This document shows, piece after piece, positions 5,504-14,316 of a DNA stretch of 54,059 nucleotides. How positions within the stretch are numbered: the first letter of the stretch is position 1; each line of letters opens with the position of its first letter. The notes below the pieces were generated by a model, which saw nothing but the letters and a program-made list of their open reading frames with translations, did no database searches and was not told where the DNA came from. The stretch is from Ilumatobacteraceae bacterium (lineage in GTDB: Bacteria > Actinomycetota > Acidimicrobiia > Acidimicrobiales > Iamiaceae). The DNA lies in the NCBI GenBank assembly GCA_025463265.1, contig JAOBWH010000197.1, forward strand, positions 1 through 54,059, given 5' to 3'. A program made the position numbers and the translations under genes.

Positions 5504-5580
5504 TGGAGCCCGCGGTCGGAATCGAACCGACGACCTGCCGCTTACAAGGCGGCTGCTCTCGCCAACTGAGCTACGCGGGC
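5504..5580 (-). tRNA. tRNA-Thr (anticodon UGU)
   Basis: On the minus strand the cloverleaf folds fully. The acceptor GCCCGCG pairs with CGCGGGC, the D-arm is GCTC/GAGC, and the anticodon stem GCCGC/GCGGC encloses loop CTTGTAA with anticodon TGT. The T-arm GTCGG/CCGAC carries TTCGATT. The discriminator is T and the CCA end is encoded (5506-5504). The UGU anticodon reads ACA and, by wobble, ACG threonine codons. Confidence 0.96.
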
Positions 5581-6550: not shown

Positions 6551-7468
6551 ATGAGCTCCATCGGTGTCGTCGAGCGCGTCGAGCGCCTCAACCGTGCGTC
6601 TGCCAAGCGGGTCATCGACCCCGACGTCGACCTGGCGGGCAACGTCGGCGACGGTCAGCTGGTGGCCGACGAGCTGCTGTCGGTCCACGGCCTCGGCCTC
6701 GACCTGACCGACGAGCAGAAGCGCACCCTCAGCCGGGAGGAGGTGGCGTCGATGTTCGACAACGGCATCCGGTTCGAGGCCGTCCTCGAGGCCGGCTTCG
6801 CGCTGCGCATCGCCCGGGCCGACGACATCACCGACCCGCGCATCACCTACCTGTTCCACGAGATGGGTGAGGAGACCCGCCACCAGCGGCTGTTCCAACG
6901 GGTGATCCGCCAGATCGCGCCGACGGCCAGGAACCCGCTCGCCGCCAACCTCCTGATCCGCTGGTTCGACCGGTTCGGGACCCGCTGGATCCTCAACCAC
7001 CCGGCCACGCTCTACACGATGGTCATCTCCGGTGAGGAGATCCCGGACCTGCTCCAGAAGCTGGCGAGCGAGCACCCCGACACCGATCCGTTCCTCGCCT
7101 CGGTGAACCGGTACCACCGGCAGGAGGAGGCGCGGCACCTCTCGTTCGCCCGGTCGATGCTGCCCGACGTGTGGGCCGAGGCCGGGCGGGGCGAGCGCTG
7201 GGGCATCCGCCACGTCGTGCCCGTCGCCATCCGCCAGATGTACGAGTTCCTGGTGCACCCGGGCGTGTACGAGACCATCGGCCTCGAGGGCTGGCCCACG
7301 TGGAGGGCCGTGAACAAGCTGCCGGAGCGCATCGCCATCCGTGAGCAGGCCACCCGCCCGATCCTCGGTGCGCTCATCGACGCCGGCATGATCTCGCCCC
7401 GCAAGGTCCCCAAGGGCTGGCAGCACCTCTGCGGCGTCCCCGCCCGGGTCGACCGCGCCACCCTCTAG
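6551..7468 (+). CDS. AurF-like diiron oxygenase
   Basis: A 305-residue protein of the AurF (p-aminobenzoate N-oxygenase) ferritin-like fold. Metal-ligand candidates are visible: EMGEETRHQRLF (Glu and His of the first pair), SGEEIPDLL and HRQEEARHLSF (ExxH of the second pair). This is the all-helical non-haem diiron pattern in which O2 is activated by two irons. AurF itself oxidises aryl amines; most homologues in actinobacteria are uncharacterised, so no substrate is claimed. The ATG at 6551 was preferred over an upstream reading that runs through the operator. It is convergent with the PP-loop gene, with one base between the stops, and is regulated by the divergent TetR. Confidence 0.85.
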   Translation: MSSIGVVERVERLNRASAKRVIDPDVDLAGNVGDGQLVADELLSVHGLGLDLTDEQKRTLSREEVASMFDNGIRFEAVLEAGFALRIARADDITDPRITYLFHEMGEETRHQRLFQRVIRQIAPTARNPLAANLLIRWFDRFGTRWILNHPATLYTMVISGEEIPDLLQKLASEHPDTDPFLASVNRYHRQEEARHLSFARSMLPDVWAEAGRGERWGIRHVVPVAIRQMYEFLVHPGVYETIGLEGWPTWRAVNKLPERIAIREQATRPILGALIDAGMISPRKVPKGWQHLCGVPARVDRATL

Positions 7469-7469
7469 A

Positions 7470-8753
7470 TCACGTCGGAGGGCGGAGCCCTTCAGGGGGT
7501 TCGGGGAGCGGGTGGCCGAGGCGTTCGGACCAGCCCTCGTCGAGCACCCGGATCGTGTCGGTGTGATGGGTCCAGTCGATGCCGCGGGCGGGGTCCTTCC
7601 ACGACGGGTGCAGGCTCGGCCGCACGCCCGACCGCTTCTCCCGGATGATCTGGCGCCACTTCTTGGCGTCGGGGCGGGCGGCGCGGCGCAGGGCGTGGAG
7701 GATGGCGTTGCGGACCTCCGGGGCGCGGCCGGTGTCGTCGAGCAGGCGGACGACGTCGATCCAGTGCTGGCGCGACTGGATGGGGGTGGGTCGCATCGTC
7801 CGGAGCTTGTCGAGCGGGATCTCGTCGGGGAAGCCGGTGGCGAGGTGCAGCGCGCCGACCGCCTGGAGCGCAGCCATCGTGATGATGCACTTGCCGCAGC
7901 GGCCGCAGTTGTCGGGGCGGTCCTCCTCGTAGCAGACCTTCAGGAACGGGAGCAGGTCCGGCCGCTGAGCGGCGAGGGCGGCCACCTTGCCGGCCCGGCC
8001 CGCACCGATGTCGCCGTGGCGGACGGTCAGCGCCGAGGTCGACAGGAGCGGGTCCAGCAGCGGGTGCGAGCCGTAGGGGACGAGGGTCGCGTAGCTGTCG
8101 GTCGACGGGATCACGACGTCGCCGACCTCGCCGCCGAGCGACGTGGCCAGGGCGGCGAGGACGCAGCCGTGGACGTCGGACCAGTCCCGGGCGTGGCCGG
8201 TGAGGGCGTGGACGTCGGTGCGCACCACGTGGAGGGGGAGACCGAGGAGGGCGGCGGCCTCGGCGGCGGCTTCGACCTCGGCGGCTGCGGTGGCGGGGGA
8301 GTGGCGGGGCTCGATGCCGTCGAGGAACACGAGGTGCGTGAGCGGCGGACGCGCCTGGGTGTCGAGGGCGGCCTCGTACATGGAGTCGACGCCACGGGAG
8401 AAGTAGGCGGCGGTCCCGGCGCCCCGCTGGTCGACCGCGGTGGCCCGCTCGGCGGCGACGGTGACCCGGGGCAGCGGCAGGGCCGGGACCCACGAGCGGT
8501 AGATGTGGAGCAGCCGGCGGATCCGGTTCAGGTGGCCGGCCTCGACCGTGGCCTCGATGTGCAGGTCGGTTTGGGCGAGGATCGCCGGCCAGATGCCGAG
8601 CCCGACGAGGTGGGCGTGATCGGCGACGTCGCCGGCGATGGGGGCGGGGATCTCGATCTGCAACGAGTCGGCGCCGTGCGAGCCGATGACCCTCGCCCGG
8701 CGGGTCACGGTCGTCTCGGTGACGATCGGATCGAGGGGCTCGATGATCACCAT
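7470..8753 (-). CDS. PP-loop ATP-pyrophosphatase-like protein with zinc knuckle
   Basis: A 427-residue protein. AAYFSRGVDSMYEA (loop at residues 119-124) is a PP-loop, the ATP-binding signature of enzymes that adenylate and replace a carbonyl or carboxyl oxygen. The later CYEEDRPDNCGRCGKC supplies four Cys (274, 283, 286, 289), a likely zinc knuckle. A family of this shape occurs beside FemAB-like acyltransferases in polysaccharide loci. It is not QueC: the context and overall sequence differ. It is translationally coupled to the GNAT gene, its ATG overlapping that gene's stop by 7 nt (ATGGTGA). I infer formation of an amide or similar group on an envelope sugar; this is not shown by the sequence. 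Confidence 0.75.
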   Translation of the reverse strand: MVIIEPLDPIVTETTVTRRARVIGSHGADSLQIEIPAPIAGDVADHAHLVGLGIWPAILAQTDLHIEATVEAGHLNRIRRLLHIYRSWVPALPLPRVTVAAERATAVDQRGAGTAAYFSRGVDSMYEAALDTQARPPLTHLVFLDGIEPRHSPATAAAEVEAAAEAAALLGLPLHVVRTDVHALTGHARDWSDVHGCVLAALATSLGGEVGDVVIPSTDSYATLVPYGSHPLLDPLLSTSALTVRHGDIGAGRAGKVAALAAQRPDLLPFLKVCYEEDRPDNCGRCGKCIITMAALQAVGALHLATGFPDEIPLDKLRTMRPTPIQSRQHWIDVVRLLDDTGRAPEVRNAILHALRRAARPDAKKWRQIIREKRSGVRPSLHPSWKDPARGIDWTHHTDTIRVLDEGWSERLGHPLPEPPEGLRPPT

Positions 8754-9622
8754 CGGTGCAGCTCCACCGTCGCGACGGGCTGGTCGTCGGTCGCCCACCA
8801 CTGCTTGTACTCGTGATCGCCGGTGAGGAGGTGGAAGTCCAGCCCCCGTTCGCACGAGTCCCGCATGGCGTCGACGAGGACCGCCCGACCGACGGAGCGC
8901 TCGGCGTGCGCCGGGTCCCAGCCGGACTGGTGGAACCAGGTCGCGCCGGCGCCGGCCAGCAGGAACAGGGCGGCGACGGGCCGGTCGTCGACGAGGAGGG
9001 TGCGGACGCTGGCGGCACCGTCGTCGCTCATGGCCATCGCGGCGGCGGCCACGGTCGTGTGCTTCTCCTCGGTGAACGACTCCGACCGGTCCGAGAAGCG
9101 CAGGTGGTGGAGGCGGACGAGGTCTTCGAGGGCGTCGAAGATGGTGTCGGGGTCACTGGCGACCTCGATCCGGACGGCCGGCTCGGCCAGCAGGCGATCG
9201 GCCTGCACGGCGATGCGGCGCGCCCGGCGGGATTCGGGACGGGCGAGGTACTCGTCCCAGGTTCCTTCCGCGAGGTGGATGGTGGGGCTGGCGGCGATCT
9301 CGGTGACGGCGGCCCGATCCTCACCGAGCTTCCGGGCCAGGGACTCGGCCGTGGGCAGCGGCAGGCGGCGAAGGCGCAGCGGCTGGTCCCGGGCCTCGGC
9401 GCAGGCCGTCGCCGCGAGCAGGGCGTCGAGGGGCGGATCGAGCCGATCGCTCAGGCGGTCGCCGACCAGGCGGAGGGGACCGCCGACGGTCCAGGCCGTG
9501 ACCGCCTGGTCGTGAGGATCATCACCCCACCGCTCCACCCGCAGCTCCGGTTCGAGGATCTGCGTGTGGGCTCCCAACCAGGCGGGGTGGCGAAACGGGT
9601 TGCCGGGCCACACCGAGGGCAC
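8747..9622 (-). CDS. FemAB/BioF2-like GNAT acyltransferase
   Basis: A 291-residue protein of the type that transfers acyl or aminoacyl groups to envelope glycans. The second half carries the GNAT core: HHLRFSDRSESFTEEKH, then VRTLLVDDRPVAALFLLAGAGATWFHQSGWDPAHAERSVGRAVL and a terminal HLLTGDHEYKQWWA. That DxxYKxxW ending is characteristic of BioF2-like (PF13480) members. Two GTG codons (9622, 9613) are possible starts. The first is only 12 bp from the start codon of the divergent deacetylase gene. Its 3' end overlaps the PP-loop gene, so the two products are probably made together and act in one modification. Confidence 0.8.
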   Translation of the reverse strand: MPSVWPGNPFRHPAWLGAHTQILEPELRVERWGDDPHDQAVTAWTVGGPLRLVGDRLSDRLDPPLDALLAATACAEARDQPLRLRRLPLPTAESLARKLGEDRAAVTEIAASPTIHLAEGTWDEYLARPESRRARRIAVQADRLLAEPAVRIEVASDPDTIFDALEDLVRLHHLRFSDRSESFTEEKHTTVAAAAMAMSDDGAASVRTLLVDDRPVAALFLLAGAGATWFHQSGWDPAHAERSVGRAVLVDAMRDSCERGLDFHLLTGDHEYKQWWATDDQPVATVELHRW

Positions 9623-9634
9623 GATACTCGCAGC

Positions 9635-10447
9635 GTGTCGGCACTGGCCCTGGCGTACCACGGGGTCTCGATGGTGCCGTTCGACGAGGACCGGCACCGG
9701 CTCTTCACACCGCCGGTGGCGCTCGACCGGCAGATCCGCCAGCTCCAGCGCTGGGGGTACGAGCTGGTGACCTTCCGCGACCTCGCATGCCGGGTCGCGT
9801 CGGCGGGTTCGCCAGCGGCGGCCGGTCGCATCGCGGCGCTGACGTTCGACGACGGGTTCGCCGACAACCGCCACGAGCTGCTGCCCGTGCTGGCGGCGCA
9901 CGGCGTCCCGGCGACCGTGTTCGTGGTGGGTGGTTGGATCGGAGGTCTGCATCCGGATGCGCCCGGCACGCCGATCCTCAACGCCGATGACGTGGTGGCA
10001 CTGCGCCAGGCCGGGGTGGAGATCGGCGGTCACGCCATGGGCCACGTCGACCTCCGGGGTGTGGGCGCGGCGGAACTGGCGGCCGACCTGGCGGCGTGCC
10101 GCACCCTGCTGTCGGACCTGATCGGCGGACCGGTGACCTCCTTCGCCTACCCGTTCGGCGATGCCGACGACCGGGTGCGTGCCGCCGTGGCGGCGGCCGG
10201 GTTCACCGCCGCGTGCCGCACCTCGGGGCAGGGCTCGTGGTCGGATCCGTTCGACCTGCCCCGCCAGGCGATGGGCAACGGTTCGTCGCTGCTGGGCCTG
10301 CGCCTCAAGCGGGCCGATCAGTACGAGGCCGTCTTGCGCTGGCCGGGTGCCGCACGGCTGCGGCGGGTCAGCCGCCGGGCGCACAACCGGGCGGAAGCAC
10401 GGCGCGCAGCAGGGCGTTCCACCGCTGCGCCGCCGCCTGCGGTGTGA
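9635..10447 (+). CDS. Polysaccharide deacetylase (NodB domain)
   Basis: A 270-residue protein with all main NodB motifs. ALTFDDGFADN holds the catalytic Asp and metal Asp, EIGGHAMGHVDL holds the two metal His residues, and TSFAYPFGDADD is motif 3. It should remove N-acetyl groups from a sugar polymer. No signal peptide is seen, so it may act on a lipid-linked or intracellular intermediate. The GTG start has GATACT 6 nt upstream, consistent with a leaderless mRNA. The last 26 codons overlap the opposite-strand glycosyltransferase gene. The Arg/Ala-rich tail there looks like read-through of antisense sequence rather than a conserved end. Confidence 0.85.
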   Translation: MSALALAYHGVSMVPFDEDRHRLFTPPVALDRQIRQLQRWGYELVTFRDLACRVASAGSPAAAGRIAALTFDDGFADNRHELLPVLAAHGVPATVFVVGGWIGGLHPDAPGTPILNADDVVALRQAGVEIGGHAMGHVDLRGVGAAELAADLAACRTLLSDLIGGPVTSFAYPFGDADDRVRAAVAAAGFTAACRTSGQGSWSDPFDLPRQAMGNGSSLLGLRLKRADQYEAVLRWPGAARLRRVSRRAHNRAEARRAAGRSTAAPPPAV

Positions 10448-11453
10448 ACTCGGCTGCCCGGCCGGGGCCGCTGGCGGCGAGGCGCACCCGGCGGGCGTCG
10501 TCGTCGAGCAGGTCCGCGATCGCCTGGGCGAGCGCGTCGGCATCGCCGGGCGGGGTGAGGACGCCGTAGCGGCCGCCGTCGAGGATCTCGGACGGCCCGT
10601 CGGTCGCCGAGGCGATGACCGGGACACCGTGGGCGAGCGCCTCGACCACGCTGAGCCCGAACGCCTCGTGCGCCGACGCCTGGATGGCGAGGGCTCCGGC
10701 CGAGTGCCACGGTCCGGGGTCGTCGACGAACCCGAGGTGGTGGACCAGGTCGGCCACGCCGCGGTCCTGGGTCTGCTGGTACAGGCGCTGGGCCAGGTCG
10801 CCCTCGTGGCCGACGACCGCTCCGCCGACGAGCGCCAGGTGCACGTCCCGGCGCCGTTCGCGCAGGGCGGCGACGGCGTCGATCGCGGTGTCCTGGCCCT
10901 TGATCGGGTCCAGCCGGGCGACCATCGACAGCAGCGGCGGGTCGTCGTGGGCGAGGCCGATGGACCCCCGGGCTCCCGTCGCCGCCCGGCGGTGCTGCAC
11001 GACGTCGCCCCAGTCGGCGCCCGGTGCGATGACCTCGACCCGCAGGGCCGGGGCCCGTTCACGGAGCGCCCGTCGAGCCGCCCGGGTGGCGGTGGCGGCG
11101 GCCAGCGCCGGAACCCCCAGGGCGAGCCCCTCGTTTGGCCGGCCGCGGAGGGTCAGGTCCAGCCACCACACCGCAGGGATCTCGGCGTGGGCAGCGGCGC
11201 GCCCGGACCAGGCGTGCCCGGAGGCGCCCATCGAGAGGACGACGTCCGGAGCCAGGTCGGTGAGCGCGTCGGCATCGGCTGAGACCGTGGTGGCGATGCC
11301 GTCGGCCGACAGGTGATCCGCCAACGGACCGGCCTCACCGAGCAGCGCCTGCACGTCCCACCCCAGGTCTCGCAGCGCGGGTGCGACGAGCCCGAGCGTC
11401 CGCTGCGAACCGCCGGCCACCGCCCGCTCGGTGGCGACGACGATGCGGCTCAC
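10368..11453 (-). CDS. GT4-family glycosyltransferase
   Basis: A 361-residue protein. The N-terminus (RIVVATERAVAGGSQRTLGLVAPALRDLGW) is the glycogen-synthase-like first Rossmann half. The second half has LSMVARLDPIKGQD, the nucleotide-sugar segment, and HEAFGLSVVEALAHGVPVIAS, the EX7E motif. A cytosolic retaining transferase building a surface glycan is expected; donor and acceptor are unknown. The GTG start overlaps the stop of the upstream glycosyltransferase as GTGA, so the two are co-translated. Its 3' end overlaps the convergent deacetylase gene by 80 bp. Confidence 0.87.
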   Translation of the reverse strand: MSRIVVATERAVAGGSQRTLGLVAPALRDLGWDVQALLGEAGPLADHLSADGIATTVSADADALTDLAPDVVLSMGASGHAWSGRAAAHAEIPAVWWLDLTLRGRPNEGLALGVPALAAATATRAARRALRERAPALRVEVIAPGADWGDVVQHRRAATGARGSIGLAHDDPPLLSMVARLDPIKGQDTAIDAVAALRERRRDVHLALVGGAVVGHEGDLAQRLYQQTQDRGVADLVHHLGFVDDPGPWHSAGALAIQASAHEAFGLSVVEALAHGVPVIASATDGPSEILDGGRYGVLTPPGDADALAQAIADLLDDDARRVRLAASGPGRAAEFTPQAAAQRWNALLRAVLPPGCAPGG

Positions 11454-12547
11454 GATGCGGTGTCGGCGCGGGCCGCGGCCAGGCCGTCGGCGAAGGCGGC
11501 GGTGGTGGCGGCCGCCGTGTCGTCCCAGGTGCAGGCTCGGACGAACGCCTTTCCGGCGGTGCCCCGGATGCGCCGCTCGGTGGGGTCGTCGGCGACGCGA
11601 GCCATCGTGGCGGCCAGGTCGGCCGCATCGCCGGGGTGGAACGTGAACACGCCTGGCCCGCCGTGCTCGGAGACCGAGGCCAGCTCGGCGGCGATGGCCG
11701 GGCAGCCGTGCGACAGGCTCAACACGAGCGATGACGGCGTCCACTCGTACCCCCGCGCCAGCACGGTGGCGTCGGCGAGCTGGTGGAGCGCGGCGACGTG
11801 CTCGTCGGGGACGTGCCCTCGCTGCACGATGCGGGGATCCTCGCTGCCGCCGGACGTGCCGGGCCGGTCGTCCGCCCCGGCGATGACGAGCGCCACGTCA
11901 TCGCGGTCGAGCTGCTCGAACGCCTCTCGCAGCAGGTCCAGCGCCTTGTCGTGCCGCTGGTGCCCGAACGCGAGGAACACGGTGGCGTCGTCGCTGATCC
12001 CGAGGTCGCAGCGCGTGAGATCGGCGGGCGCGCCGTGCGCGTCGCCGTAGTGGCCGAGCGGCACGGTCCGCACCCGATCCCGTGGCGCCAGGCCGAGGTC
12101 GATGACCCGTGCGGTGGCCACCTGGTTGTGCGTCAGCACGACGTGGGCGTGCCGCCCCAGCTCGACCGCCGCCAGGTGCTCGAGCGTCGGCGCAGTGCCG
12201 CCGAGCTGCGCGACCTCGTGGACGGTCCAGGCCAGCGTGTACCCGAGCTCGGTCGCGTGGGCCAGCTGCTGGCCCAGCCGGGCCGCCGCCTCCGCAGCCG
12301 AGTCCGGGGTCCAGGCTCGGGGCGGCCCCAGCGGCTCGTCATCGTCGACCAGCCGATCGAGCCGCCAGTGCACGTGCAGCACATCGACGTCGTCGGTGTG
12401 TGCCTCCAGCCAGCCGGGCGTCAACCACCCGTGCCCGACCAGCTCGACGCCGTGGCCGGCGAGGTGCGAGTAGAGCAGCCGCTGGTACGGGTTCCGATCC
12501 GACGTGACCGGCAAGCGCGCCACCCGAACCAGACCACCCTCCCGCAT
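11450..12547 (-). CDS. Glycosyltransferase (GT-B, GT4-like)
   Basis: A 365-residue GT-B protein. DVDVLHVHWRLDRLV and LAWTVHEVAQLGG are typical of transferases acting on polysaccharide intermediates. The C-terminal half has TVFLAFGHQRHDKALDLL and EWTPSSLVLSLSHGCPAIAAELASV. In the latter the second Glu of the usual EX7E motif is replaced by a non-acidic residue, so activity or donor choice may differ. The start is the ATG at 12547, 8 nt after a TACGCT box on the minus strand; a GTG at 12568 lies upstream of that box. First gene of a two-gene glycosyltransferase operon. Confidence 0.83.
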   Translation of the reverse strand: MREGGLVRVARLPVTSDRNPYQRLLYSHLAGHGVELVGHGWLTPGWLEAHTDDVDVLHVHWRLDRLVDDDEPLGPPRAWTPDSAAEAAARLGQQLAHATELGYTLAWTVHEVAQLGGTAPTLEHLAAVELGRHAHVVLTHNQVATARVIDLGLAPRDRVRTVPLGHYGDAHGAPADLTRCDLGISDDATVFLAFGHQRHDKALDLLREAFEQLDRDDVALVIAGADDRPGTSGGSEDPRIVQRGHVPDEHVAALHQLADATVLARGYEWTPSSLVLSLSHGCPAIAAELASVSEHGGPGVFTFHPGDAADLAATMARVADDPTERRIRGTAGKAFVRACTWDDTAAATTAAFADGLAAARADTAS

Positions 12548-12561: not shown

Positions 12562-12628
12562 CGTCCACCGAACTCGGCCGTCGCAGTGCGAGCGGGGAAT
12601 CTCGTTGTCGTCCACGCGGAGGCGGCCG

Positions 12629-12634
12629 TAGGGT
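12629..12634 (+). promoter_or_regulatory. -10 box (TAGGGT) of the Uma2 gene
   Basis: TAGGGT followed by 8 nt and the ATG at 12643. There is no purine-rich ribosome site before the ATG, which supports a leaderless message. Confidence 0.4.
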
Positions 12635-12642
12635 TCGTCGGC

Positions 12643-13212
12643 ATGGATGTGGTGGTGATCGACCCTCCCGCAGACCTCATCGCCGAGCGGCAGCGCCTCG
12701 GCCTCGACAAGCACGACGAGGTCTGGGACGGCGACTACCACATGGTTCCTGCAGGTTCGGGTGAGCACCAGCGGACGATCCTCCAGCTGGCGATGGCGTG
12801 GCACCCGCTCCTCGATGCGGCTGGGCTCGACCTCCGACACGAGTGGAACCTCATCCCCGTCGGTGAGCCCGGCTGGAACGATTTCCGGGTCCCCGATCTC
12901 GTGGTCTTCCCTCCCGAGGTGTACGAGGATCGCGGAGCGGTCGGACCCGCAGCACTGGTCGTGGAGATCCGGTCTCCCGGTGATGAGTCGTTCCAGAAGC
13001 TGCCGTTCTTCGAGCGGCTCGATGTGGGCGAGGTCCTGATCGTCGACCGGGACACGAAGGCGGTCCGGCGGTGGGTCAACGGCACGGACGGCCTCCTCGA
13101 GTCCGCGGGTGATGGCGAGGGCCGTCATGTGCTCGCCTGCCTGCCGGTCGAGATCTGGAACGAAGGCGAGACGCTCGTCGTGCTCGCCGACGGGGTGCGC
13201 TGCGAGATCTGA
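12643..13212 (+). CDS. Uma2 family (DUF820) PD-(D/E)XK nuclease-like protein
   Basis: A 189-residue protein of the Uma2 fold, a restriction-endonuclease-like core common in actinobacteria and cyanobacteria. The catalytic pattern is visible as Asp85 in FRVPDLVVF, Glu108 in LVVEIRSPGDES and a Lys at 119. The usual second-strand residue after Glu is Arg here. VGEVLIVDRDTK is the conserved strand that follows. The cellular role of the family is unknown. It stands alone, convergent with the AlkZ-like gene (6 bp between stops). Confidence 0.85.
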   Translation: MDVVVIDPPADLIAERQRLGLDKHDEVWDGDYHMVPAGSGEHQRTILQLAMAWHPLLDAAGLDLRHEWNLIPVGEPGWNDFRVPDLVVFPPEVYEDRGAVGPAALVVEIRSPGDESFQKLPFFERLDVGEVLIVDRDTKAVRRWVNGTDGLLESAGDGEGRHVLACLPVEIWNEGETLVVLADGVRCEI

Positions 13213-13218
13213 CCCGCC

Positions 13219-14316
13219 CTACTGCTCGACGGCGAGGGGCTTCGATCGGACGTCGAGGTAGCGGGCCACGTCGGCGGCGTCGGCTTCGAGGGCGGCCATC
13301 GCCTCCTCGGCGATCGTGGCGATGGGCTTGAGGGTGACCTGGCCCTTGGACATGGTCCAGGTGGCGGCGACCCGACCGTCGACCAGGGCGGTGGGGCGGA
13401 AGATGCCGTTGCTCGTCACGACCCCGTCGTCGGCCTCCACGAACTCCTTGCGGCTGGACCAGCCGTGGAGGATCGGGTCGAACCCGCCGAGCAGGATCGG
13501 GGCGGGCAGGTCGGCCGACGGTGGCTGGTCGACGAGCCGGATCAGCCCTCCGGCGCCCCACGGTTCGGTGCGGTCCTCGATGGAGGCGAAGGCCGTGCGG
13601 CACTCGCCGAGGGCGAGGCCGGTCCACTTCACCAGGTCCTCCGGTGCGGCCGGGCCGTGGCCGCGGAGGTAGCGCTCGGCCAGGCGGGTCAGCTGCACGG
13701 CGCGATCCTCGTCCCGTCGATCGCCGAGCCAGGTCGGGGCGTGGACGAAGGCGTGCTGCCCGTCGACCACTGGCCCCCGGACCACATGACCGTCGATCGC
13801 AGCGGCGTGGATGACGTGGACCAACGCCTGGTGGGCGGTCGGGACGCCCGCCGCGTCGAGGAGCACCTTGAGCTGGTCGCGGGTCTGCGGGCCGGAGCGC
13901 ACGGCTTCGAGCACCACGGCGACGCCTCGTTCGGCCTGGCGTCCATCGACGCCTTCTTGGCGGAGCCTGGTCCGGCTGGCGGTGCGCTGCCGGGGGGTCA
14001 GGAGGTCGTGCAGCCACCAGAAGTCGTCCGCGGCGACGAGGTGGAGGGTCGTCCGCATGAGGGACCCGACCACCAGGGTCCGCCGGTCGGTGAGCGCGGC
14101 GTCGACATCGCCAGCGGTGAGCCCCGTCGACCGGGACCGCACGCTCAGGCGCATCGCCCTCGGGTCCTGGGCCTGGACGGCGAGCAGCTGCTCCACGACC
14201 GCCTCCGGCGACGCTGCGGACCGGCTCGTCAGCAGCTGCGACGCGAGGCGGGCGGCGCGGAGATCGGGGTCAGCAGGTGCGGCGATGGGTCGAGCATGCC
14301 TGAGTGGCGGCTTCAC
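13219..14316 (-). CDS. AlkZ-like winged-helix DNA glycosylase domain protein
   Basis: A 365-residue protein of the winged-helix DNA-binding (HTH_42) family that contains Streptomyces AlkZ and E. coli YcaQ, glycosylases that unhook interstrand crosslinks. LLAVQAQDPRAMRLSV carries the QxQ signature at Gln48-Ala-Gln50, proposed as the catalytic motif of AlkZ. LVVGSLMRTTLHLVAADDFWWL and ILLGGFDPILHGWSSRKEF are further family blocks. The start is GTG, divergent from the small protein gene at 14367 with about 50 bp between. Confidence 0.85.
   Translation of the reverse strand: MKPPLRHARPIAAPADPDLRAARLASQLLTSRSAASPEAVVEQLLAVQAQDPRAMRLSVRSRSTGLTAGDVDAALTDRRTLVVGSLMRTTLHLVAADDFWWLHDLLTPRQRTASRTRLRQEGVDGRQAERGVAVVLEAVRSGPQTRDQLKVLLDAAGVPTAHQALVHVIHAAAIDGHVVRGPVVDGQHAFVHAPTWLGDRRDEDRAVQLTRLAERYLRGHGPAAPEDLVKWTGLALGECRTAFASIEDRTEPWGAGGLIRLVDQPPSADLPAPILLGGFDPILHGWSSRKEFVEADDGVVTSNGIFRPTALVDGRVAATWTMSKGQVTLKPIATIAEEAMAALEADAADVARYLDVRSKPLAVEQ

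Follow-up and report, generated by a model that had tools for sequence, protein, structure and literature searches.

What do two family 4 glycosyltransferases (GT4), a GNAT protein and a PP-loop ATPase make when their genes stand together on one strand? The question is raised by positions 7470–12547 of a 54,059-bp stretch of DNA from an Ilumatobacteraceae bacterium (assembly GCA_025463265.1, contig JAOBWH010000197.1, positions 1 to 54,059; this whole stretch is hereafter the window). The four genes form a conserved unit, beyond chance, whose probable task is to assemble a surface sugar chain and to decorate it; the PP-loop protein belongs to an apparently undescribed enzyme family, related to QueC and QatC, that is strongly linked to glycan genes.

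Read on the minus strand from 12547 or 12568 down to 7470, the order of the genes is GT4b (11450 to 12547 with an ATG start or 12568 with a GTG start; PF13692, E = 8.4e-12), GT4a (10368–11453; PF00534, E = 7.8e-32), the GNAT gene (8747 to about 9622, with an uncertain GTG start; PF13480, E = 6.7e-22) and the PP-loop gene (7470–8753), whose 427-aa product, P0001, is a QueC/QatC-like ATPase with an SRGVDS loop and a Cys site. GT4b and GT4a overlap by 4 bases, and the GNAT and PP-loop genes by 7. By eye, GT4a has the EX7E motif (HEAFGLSVVEA), whereas GT4b lacks its second Glu. A polysaccharide deacetylase gene (about 9635–10447; PF01522, E = 2.8e-25) lies on the plus strand between the GNAT gene and GT4a; its start is about 12 bases from the GNAT start, and its 3' end shares about 80 bases with the 3' end of GT4a. 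All five genes named in an earlier sequence-only reading of this DNA were confirmed in place, including the coupling of the PP-loop and GNAT genes and that of the GT4 pair, which that reading had described as flanking genes together with the deacetylase.

Four related loci (L079–L082; L080 is on the contig of genome G364) were obtained by scanning genome contigs with the PP-loop pair profile, all of them in metagenome-assembled genomes titled Actinobacteria or Actinomycetota. In every one, GT4b, GT4a, GNAT and PP-loop genes follow in identical order on a single strand, and the GNAT and PP-loop genes overlap by 4 bases; the window GNAT is shorter than its four orthologues by about 17 N-terminal residues. 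The closest relative of the window PP-loop protein is that of G364, a genome of the same order and a different family (46% identity in pairwise alignment), and in a 33-row tree they group as a clade with 100/100 support; identity to the G364 locus was 36% for the GNAT, 38% for GT4a and 39% for GT4b. Between L080 and L081, conservation was highest for the PP-loop gene (85% identity; ratio of nonsynonymous to synonymous substitution rates, dN/dS, 0.16), the values being 73% and 0.28 for the GNAT, 78% and 0.25 for GT4a, and 68% and 0.41 for GT4b, with dS estimates that are rough at the high G+C of these genes. The window–L081 dN/dS of 0.62–0.99 concerns distant sequences of high G+C and carries no inference. 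Among 248 genomes of the order, the GNAT profile matched at E < 1e-100 only in the window genome (G000) and G364 (next match, 4.1e-24), and among 397 genomes of the order the PP-loop pair profile matched at E < 1e-200 only in the same two (next, 2.4e-44), both of which had contributed rows to both profiles; neither draw held a third genome with a close relative of the GNAT or PP-loop gene. The deacetylase is placed outside the unit for two reasons: its gene runs the opposite way, and phmmer (1e-3) matched it to none of the genes called in the four related loci. Thus, of the flanking genes, the coupled GT4 pair belongs to the unit, whereas the deacetylase flanks it in this window only, and the step by which deacetylation was supposed to free an amine is left without a conserved gene.

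In sequence, the PP-loop protein stands apart from catalogued families. P0001 matched nothing in Pfam above cut-off (QueC, PF06508, 11.8 bits vs. 22) and nothing in NCBIfam at E up to 1, the QatC model and TIGR03573 included, and no PDB chain was found by sequence below E = 0.4. The SRGVDS loop occupies residues 119–124, with arginine replacing the second glycine of the SGGxDS of QueC, and an NCGRCGKC stretch begins at residue 282; the resulting Cys site, C274-x8-C283-x2-C286-x2-C289, has the QueC C(x)8CxxCxxC spacing (motif as given in PMC13329287). Sixteen diverse members share invariant W88, G121, D123, T179, G228, P231, R253, C274, N282, C283, C286, K288 and C289; PF19932 (DUF6395) matched 11 of them weakly (best E = 4.5e-4), and PF06508 matched 8 (best E = 0.012). 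Across 53 family genes, the NCGxCxKC-type end was found in 51 and the exact x8 spacing in 29, while the loop read SGGxD in 17, SRGxD in 17 and TRGxD in 8. In profile comparison, probabilities were 92.7% for QatC (with the broader alignment A1), 89.3% for QueC and 56.9% for WbuX.

The P0001 model, built from a nine-row alignment, had a mean predicted local distance difference test score (pLDDT) of 81 and a predicted template modeling score of 0.81. VIA-align placed QatC at the top (Z = 13.3), followed by QueC (11.2 and 11.0) and Cap9 (10.8), with other listed PP-loop enzymes at or below 9.4. The superposition on QatC covered 291 residues of chain 9y01_B (model 1–350, root-mean-square deviation (rmsd) 4.8) and 294 of 9y02_B (model 1–360, rmsd 4.4), so that the N-terminal region aligned in addition to the QueC-like domain; by eye, QatC and P0001 look similar in a G-S/T-H-P segment and in a basic-x-x-K segment downstream of it. 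In contrast, the QatC Cys site is C-x19-CGxCxxRR (as given in PMC13329287) rather than C-x8-C-x2-C-x2-C, and none of the three QatC patterns tested, D(x)4R(x)7WxR, P(x)4TK and the CGxCxxRR end, was present in P0001; moreover, the genes flanking P0001 match AurF, Acetyltransf_6, deacetylase and GT4, not qatA, qatB or qatD. From QueC, with which it shares the predicted fold and the Cys-site spacing, P0001 differs in the loop and in the extra N-terminal region, and the QueC motifs YxQxHxxE, VPxRN and YPDC were absent from all 54 rows examined (P0001 counted twice). Judging from the model, P0001 shares the QueC/QatC scaffold, yet it belongs to neither family as tested, because the tested substrate motifs are absent. 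Canonical QueC is ruled out as the identity of P0001 by these motifs and by the separate canonical QueC gene that the window genome encodes on contig C172. The N-acetyl sugar amidotransferases WbpG/WbuX (TIGR03573) are likewise PP-loop enzymes of surface-glycan loci (WbpG, according to PMC13329287), but P0001 has no TIGR03573 match and the profile similarity is weak.

The strong link of the family to glycan genes was seen in 31 genomes with accepted members, collected in three family or profile scans; in one of these, 46 genomes matched at E ≤ 1e-3, of which the 16 with E < 1e-20 were kept and the other 30 matched only around the PP-loop, and a match in G008 (L033) was excluded as a DAHP synthase by eye. 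Polysaccharide pyruvyl transferase (PF04230) is encoded in 29 of the 31 genomes. In 19 genomes it is no more than 10 kb away from a PP-loop family gene, where 0.33 would be expected from gene numbers and genome sizes, and in 17 the distance is 5 kb at most; these counts are not independent events, as the genomes share ancestry. The partners are adjacent, overlapping or fused across several phyla; in G261, the PP-loop domain and the pyruvyl transferase form one protein. The immediate neighbors (94 proteins from 44 loci) included, among the best 25 of 83 families, PS_pyruv_trans (17), Glycos_transf_2 (15), Glycos_transf_1 (7) and Acetyltransf_6 (5), whereas none of these four appeared for 94 control genes among the best 25 of 134 families, where a family matched by a single control gene might be missed; the controls gave two LytR_cpsA_psr matches among the families listed. 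The control genes (94 of 124 drawn) came from random regions of ten family genomes, and the neighbors from more genomes plus plasmids; two of the 20 control regions were removed as close to family genes, and gene calling was poor on control L142. The neighbor tally omits L022 and L071, which have no called PP-loop gene, and L021, which is near-identical to L019; L080 and L065 are the same contig. By eye, ABC polysaccharide exporters are present in some family loci.

The family was found in Actinomycetota, cyanobacteria and Alphaproteobacteria, and also in 11 plasmid records (Azospirillum, seven; Gloeothece, two; Gemmobacter and Nostoc, one each), where all members are labeled 'hypothetical protein'. 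In the five plasmid loci examined, a pyruvyl transferase gene adjoins the family gene in both Gloeothece plasmids and in Azospirillum brasilense, a cultured, harmless and plant-beneficial species whose plasmid has a two-gene version with the pyruvyl transferase gene first and the family gene after it, and lies two genes off in Gemmobacter; the Nostoc stretch has no pyruvyl transferase, and exopolysaccharide genes start about 5 kb away. On the Gloeothece plasmids (L019 and L021), the pair lies near large non-ribosomal peptide synthetase genes. By eye, family genes stand beside an HPr-kinase-like gene in L069 (1–4200) and L070 (9299–11414), and L069 also has PqqD-like and S26 peptidase-like genes, which looks like a peptide-natural-product setting. 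In L066 (1400–2467), a DUF1611 protein (PF07755, E = 4e-55), which we take to be of the D-glutamate N-acetyltransferase family, is encoded between the PP-loop family and pyruvyl transferase genes. No phage link was seen, because scans of viral contigs and phage records with P0001, and of viral contigs with the A2 profile, returned no relative; single-protein scans of genome contigs with P0001 were also empty. Searches of open-licence papers found no description of the PP-loop family in glycan loci.

Near the unit itself, each of the four related loci has a second PP-loop family gene, placed upstream and divergent on the other strand. It overlaps the next gene by 4 bases in L079, L081 and L082; in L079 and L081 this neighbor encodes a GT2 fused to a polysaccharide pyruvyl transferase (PF04230, E = 3.1e-19 and 3e-23), and in L082 it is a GT2 gene interrupted by the contig end, while the contig of L080 stops at the second PP-loop gene. 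These second paralogues (L079, 2797–4533; L081, 3805–5547; L082, 1591–3303) have a common C-terminal extension of about 150 residues, for which no clear Pfam match was found in the L079 protein. The window genome has four PP-loop family genes in all, the others being at C75 14286–15473, C75 17741–18856 and C199 4080–5222; one of these three adjoins an SRAP gene. The sole PF04230 match of this genome is a 786-aa protein on C75 (E = 1.5e-19), near a GT4 gene and 6–10 kb from two PP-loop family genes. The sequence-only reading could not show the pyruvyl transferase link, because the only copy found is on another contig.

The GNAT of the unit was called FemAB-like in that reading, and the predicted structure agrees. 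The model was moderate (mean pLDDT 65), and the first half of the Fem fold was weakly tested because residues 28–114 had pLDDT values under 50. In Foldseek a Bacteroides protein came first (9.8e-6), ahead of FemX (1.2e-5) and of Sbb17, a peptide synthase that depends on aminoacyl-tRNA (1.6e-5); in VIA-align, FemX (4ii9_A) was at the top (Z = 16.9, rmsd 4.5, 237 residues aligned, model 4–290), followed by Sba18/Sbb17 (15.4–15.8) and FemA (15.4), with MprF-type and single-domain GNATs at or below 13.1. The GNAT model thus has the FemX-like double-GNAT Fem fold, superposing on FemX, one of the FemX/FemA aminoacyl transferases, over residues 4–290, although in sequence the window protein matches only PF13480.

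A glycan role is likely for the unit, and within it we favor, with slightly less than an even chance of being right, a cassette for the assembly and decoration of a surface glycan in which the PP-loop enzyme forms an amide via an ATP-activated carboxylate and the FemX-like GNAT acylates an amine. The two GT4 enzymes would lengthen the sugar chain. The PP-loop enzyme, a putative ATP pyrophosphatase of the QatC/QueC type that combines an N-terminal domain with a Cys site like that of QueC, would adenylate a carboxylate, which may belong to a small acid, a uronic acid or a pyruvylated sugar, and would hand it to an amine or ammonia to give an amide; alternatively, it may join the acid to an amino sugar. 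The GNAT would then transfer an aminoacyl or acyl group onto an amino group of the same product. QueC-type PP-loop enzymes use ATP for carboxylate activation, and QatC and Cap9 are ligases (as described in PMC13329287). Amide formation on a glycan carboxylate, or the joining of an acid to an amino sugar, would be the simplest role because the neighbors are glycosyltransferases and pyruvyl transferases; the data show the gene set with its conserved order and strand, the linkage and the fold resemblance, whereas the substrate, the formation of an amide, the donor and the step order are inferred. The earlier proposal of a decorated amino-sugar glycan is partly supported: it was probably right as to the sphere, given the family's link to glycan genes, and wrong as to the deacetylase partner. 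What is new is the enzyme family and the setting in which it occurs, rather than the kind of pathway. Glycan loci appear to contain the family frequently, often beside polysaccharide pyruvyl transferase; if it forms amides on sugar acids, it could explain glycan decorations that have no assigned enzyme, and the QueC/QatC scaffold would serve glycan chemistry besides tRNA modification and phage defense.

Several observations weigh against this amide-forming cassette. Foldseek found no PDB match for the P0001 model at E ≤ 1e-3 (best, MnmA, 0.042), the VIA-align results speak at the level of the fold only, and the QatC profile probability depends on the alignment, falling from 92.7% with A1 to 5% with the narrower A6. 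The unit is carried by five genomes, some of which may be close kin. In 12 of the 31 family genomes, no family gene has a pyruvyl transferase gene on its contig at a distance of up to 10 kb (two genomes lack it altogether, and some contigs are short), and the window unit itself has none adjoining, the only copy found in its genome being on C75; some family members, those on C75 and C199 among them, have no obvious glycan genes immediately adjacent, as far as these were read. It should be noted that sequence alone cannot tell whether the ATP-driven step is an amidation, a ligation, a thiolation or something else.

A GT4, an ATP-dependent ligase and a GNAT also parallel MshA, MshC and MshD, and the unit might instead make a small glycosylated metabolite resembling mycothiol, an acylated amino-sugar conjugate formed by a GT4, an adenylating ligase and a GNAT; we hold this unlikely, while granting it an appreciable chance. 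GT4a matches the MshA model in the window (E = 7.5e-24) and in L079 (E = 1.1e-21), MshD (1ozp) is among the fold matches of the GNAT (Z = 11.2), and family members lie near the peptide synthetase genes of the two Gloeothece plasmids. However, both MshA matches are far below cut-off (84.4 bits vs. 462.5 for GT4a), so GT4a is not assigned to MshA; FemX scores well over MshD for the GNAT, the orthologous loci have no deacetylase match, and the commonest partners of the family are pyruvyl transferases and GT2 enzymes, with polysaccharide exporters in some loci. Many PP-loop enzymes are tRNA or nucleotide enzymes, and the family profile matches MnmA and GMP synthase in the PDB (E about 2e-4); it is nevertheless highly improbable that P0001 is an ordinary enzyme of this kind in an incidental glycosyltransferase neighborhood, as the gene order is kept in all four related loci, the glycan linkage is family-wide, and the window genome has four family genes plus a separate canonical QueC.

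It is highly improbable, too, that the PP-loop protein works in the manner of QatC or Cap9, coupling a carboxylated base, for instance 7-carboxy-7-deazaguanine, with an amine carried here by a protein or sugar, and that the glycosyltransferases take part in the same route. QatC is the best fold match, N-terminal region included, and QueC (E below 1e-60) and QueD occur together in all five unit genomes, whereas only 5 of the other 29 have both; QueC is over cut-off in 73 of 248 genomes of the order. In G053 and G011, which belong to one family, the PP-loop family gene and a QueT transporter gene diverge from each other (L027, 10761–11198, tested with Pfam in G053; L030, 10784–11224, identified by similarity in G011). 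On the other hand, 21 of the 29 other family genomes have neither a strong QueC nor a QueD match, the tested QatC motifs are absent, and kinship may explain much of the five-of-five count; the deazaguanine link is weak because some of the unit genomes may be closely related. QueC and QueD are expected anyway for the queuosine pathway: they lie about 700 bases apart on C172 of the window genome, as that pathway would have them. We give only a very slight chance to the idea that a QatC-like ligase family was recruited to glycan biosynthesis and that, in the lineage with this unit, it links 7-carboxy-7-deazaguanine or some other heterocyclic acid to an amino sugar, so that the surface glycan carries a base. 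Membership in a defense system was rejected, since PADLOC gave only weak matches for single members, which also speaks against a QatC/Cap9-like role.

The XrtA/PEP-CTERM exopolysaccharide locus brings together GT4 enzymes, a FemAB-like protein, a deacetylase and an amidotransferase. It differs from the window locus, where both the deacetylase and GT4a score far under the cut-offs of the XrtA family and the PP-loop protein is of QueC/QatC type. The candidate was rejected, as no exosortase (PF09721) match was found in the window genome; PF09721 matches do occur in the other four unit genomes, in G364 on a different contig from the unit.

Beside the unit in the window, an AurF-like diiron N-oxygenase gene (6551–7468; PF11583, E = 2e-40) is convergent with the PP-loop gene and 1 base apart from it. 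A tRNA-Thr gene (anticodon TGT; 5504–5580, minus strand) lies near the four genes, and at 12586–14316 a Uma2-type endonuclease-like gene and an AlkZ-like DNA glycosylase gene adjoin them.

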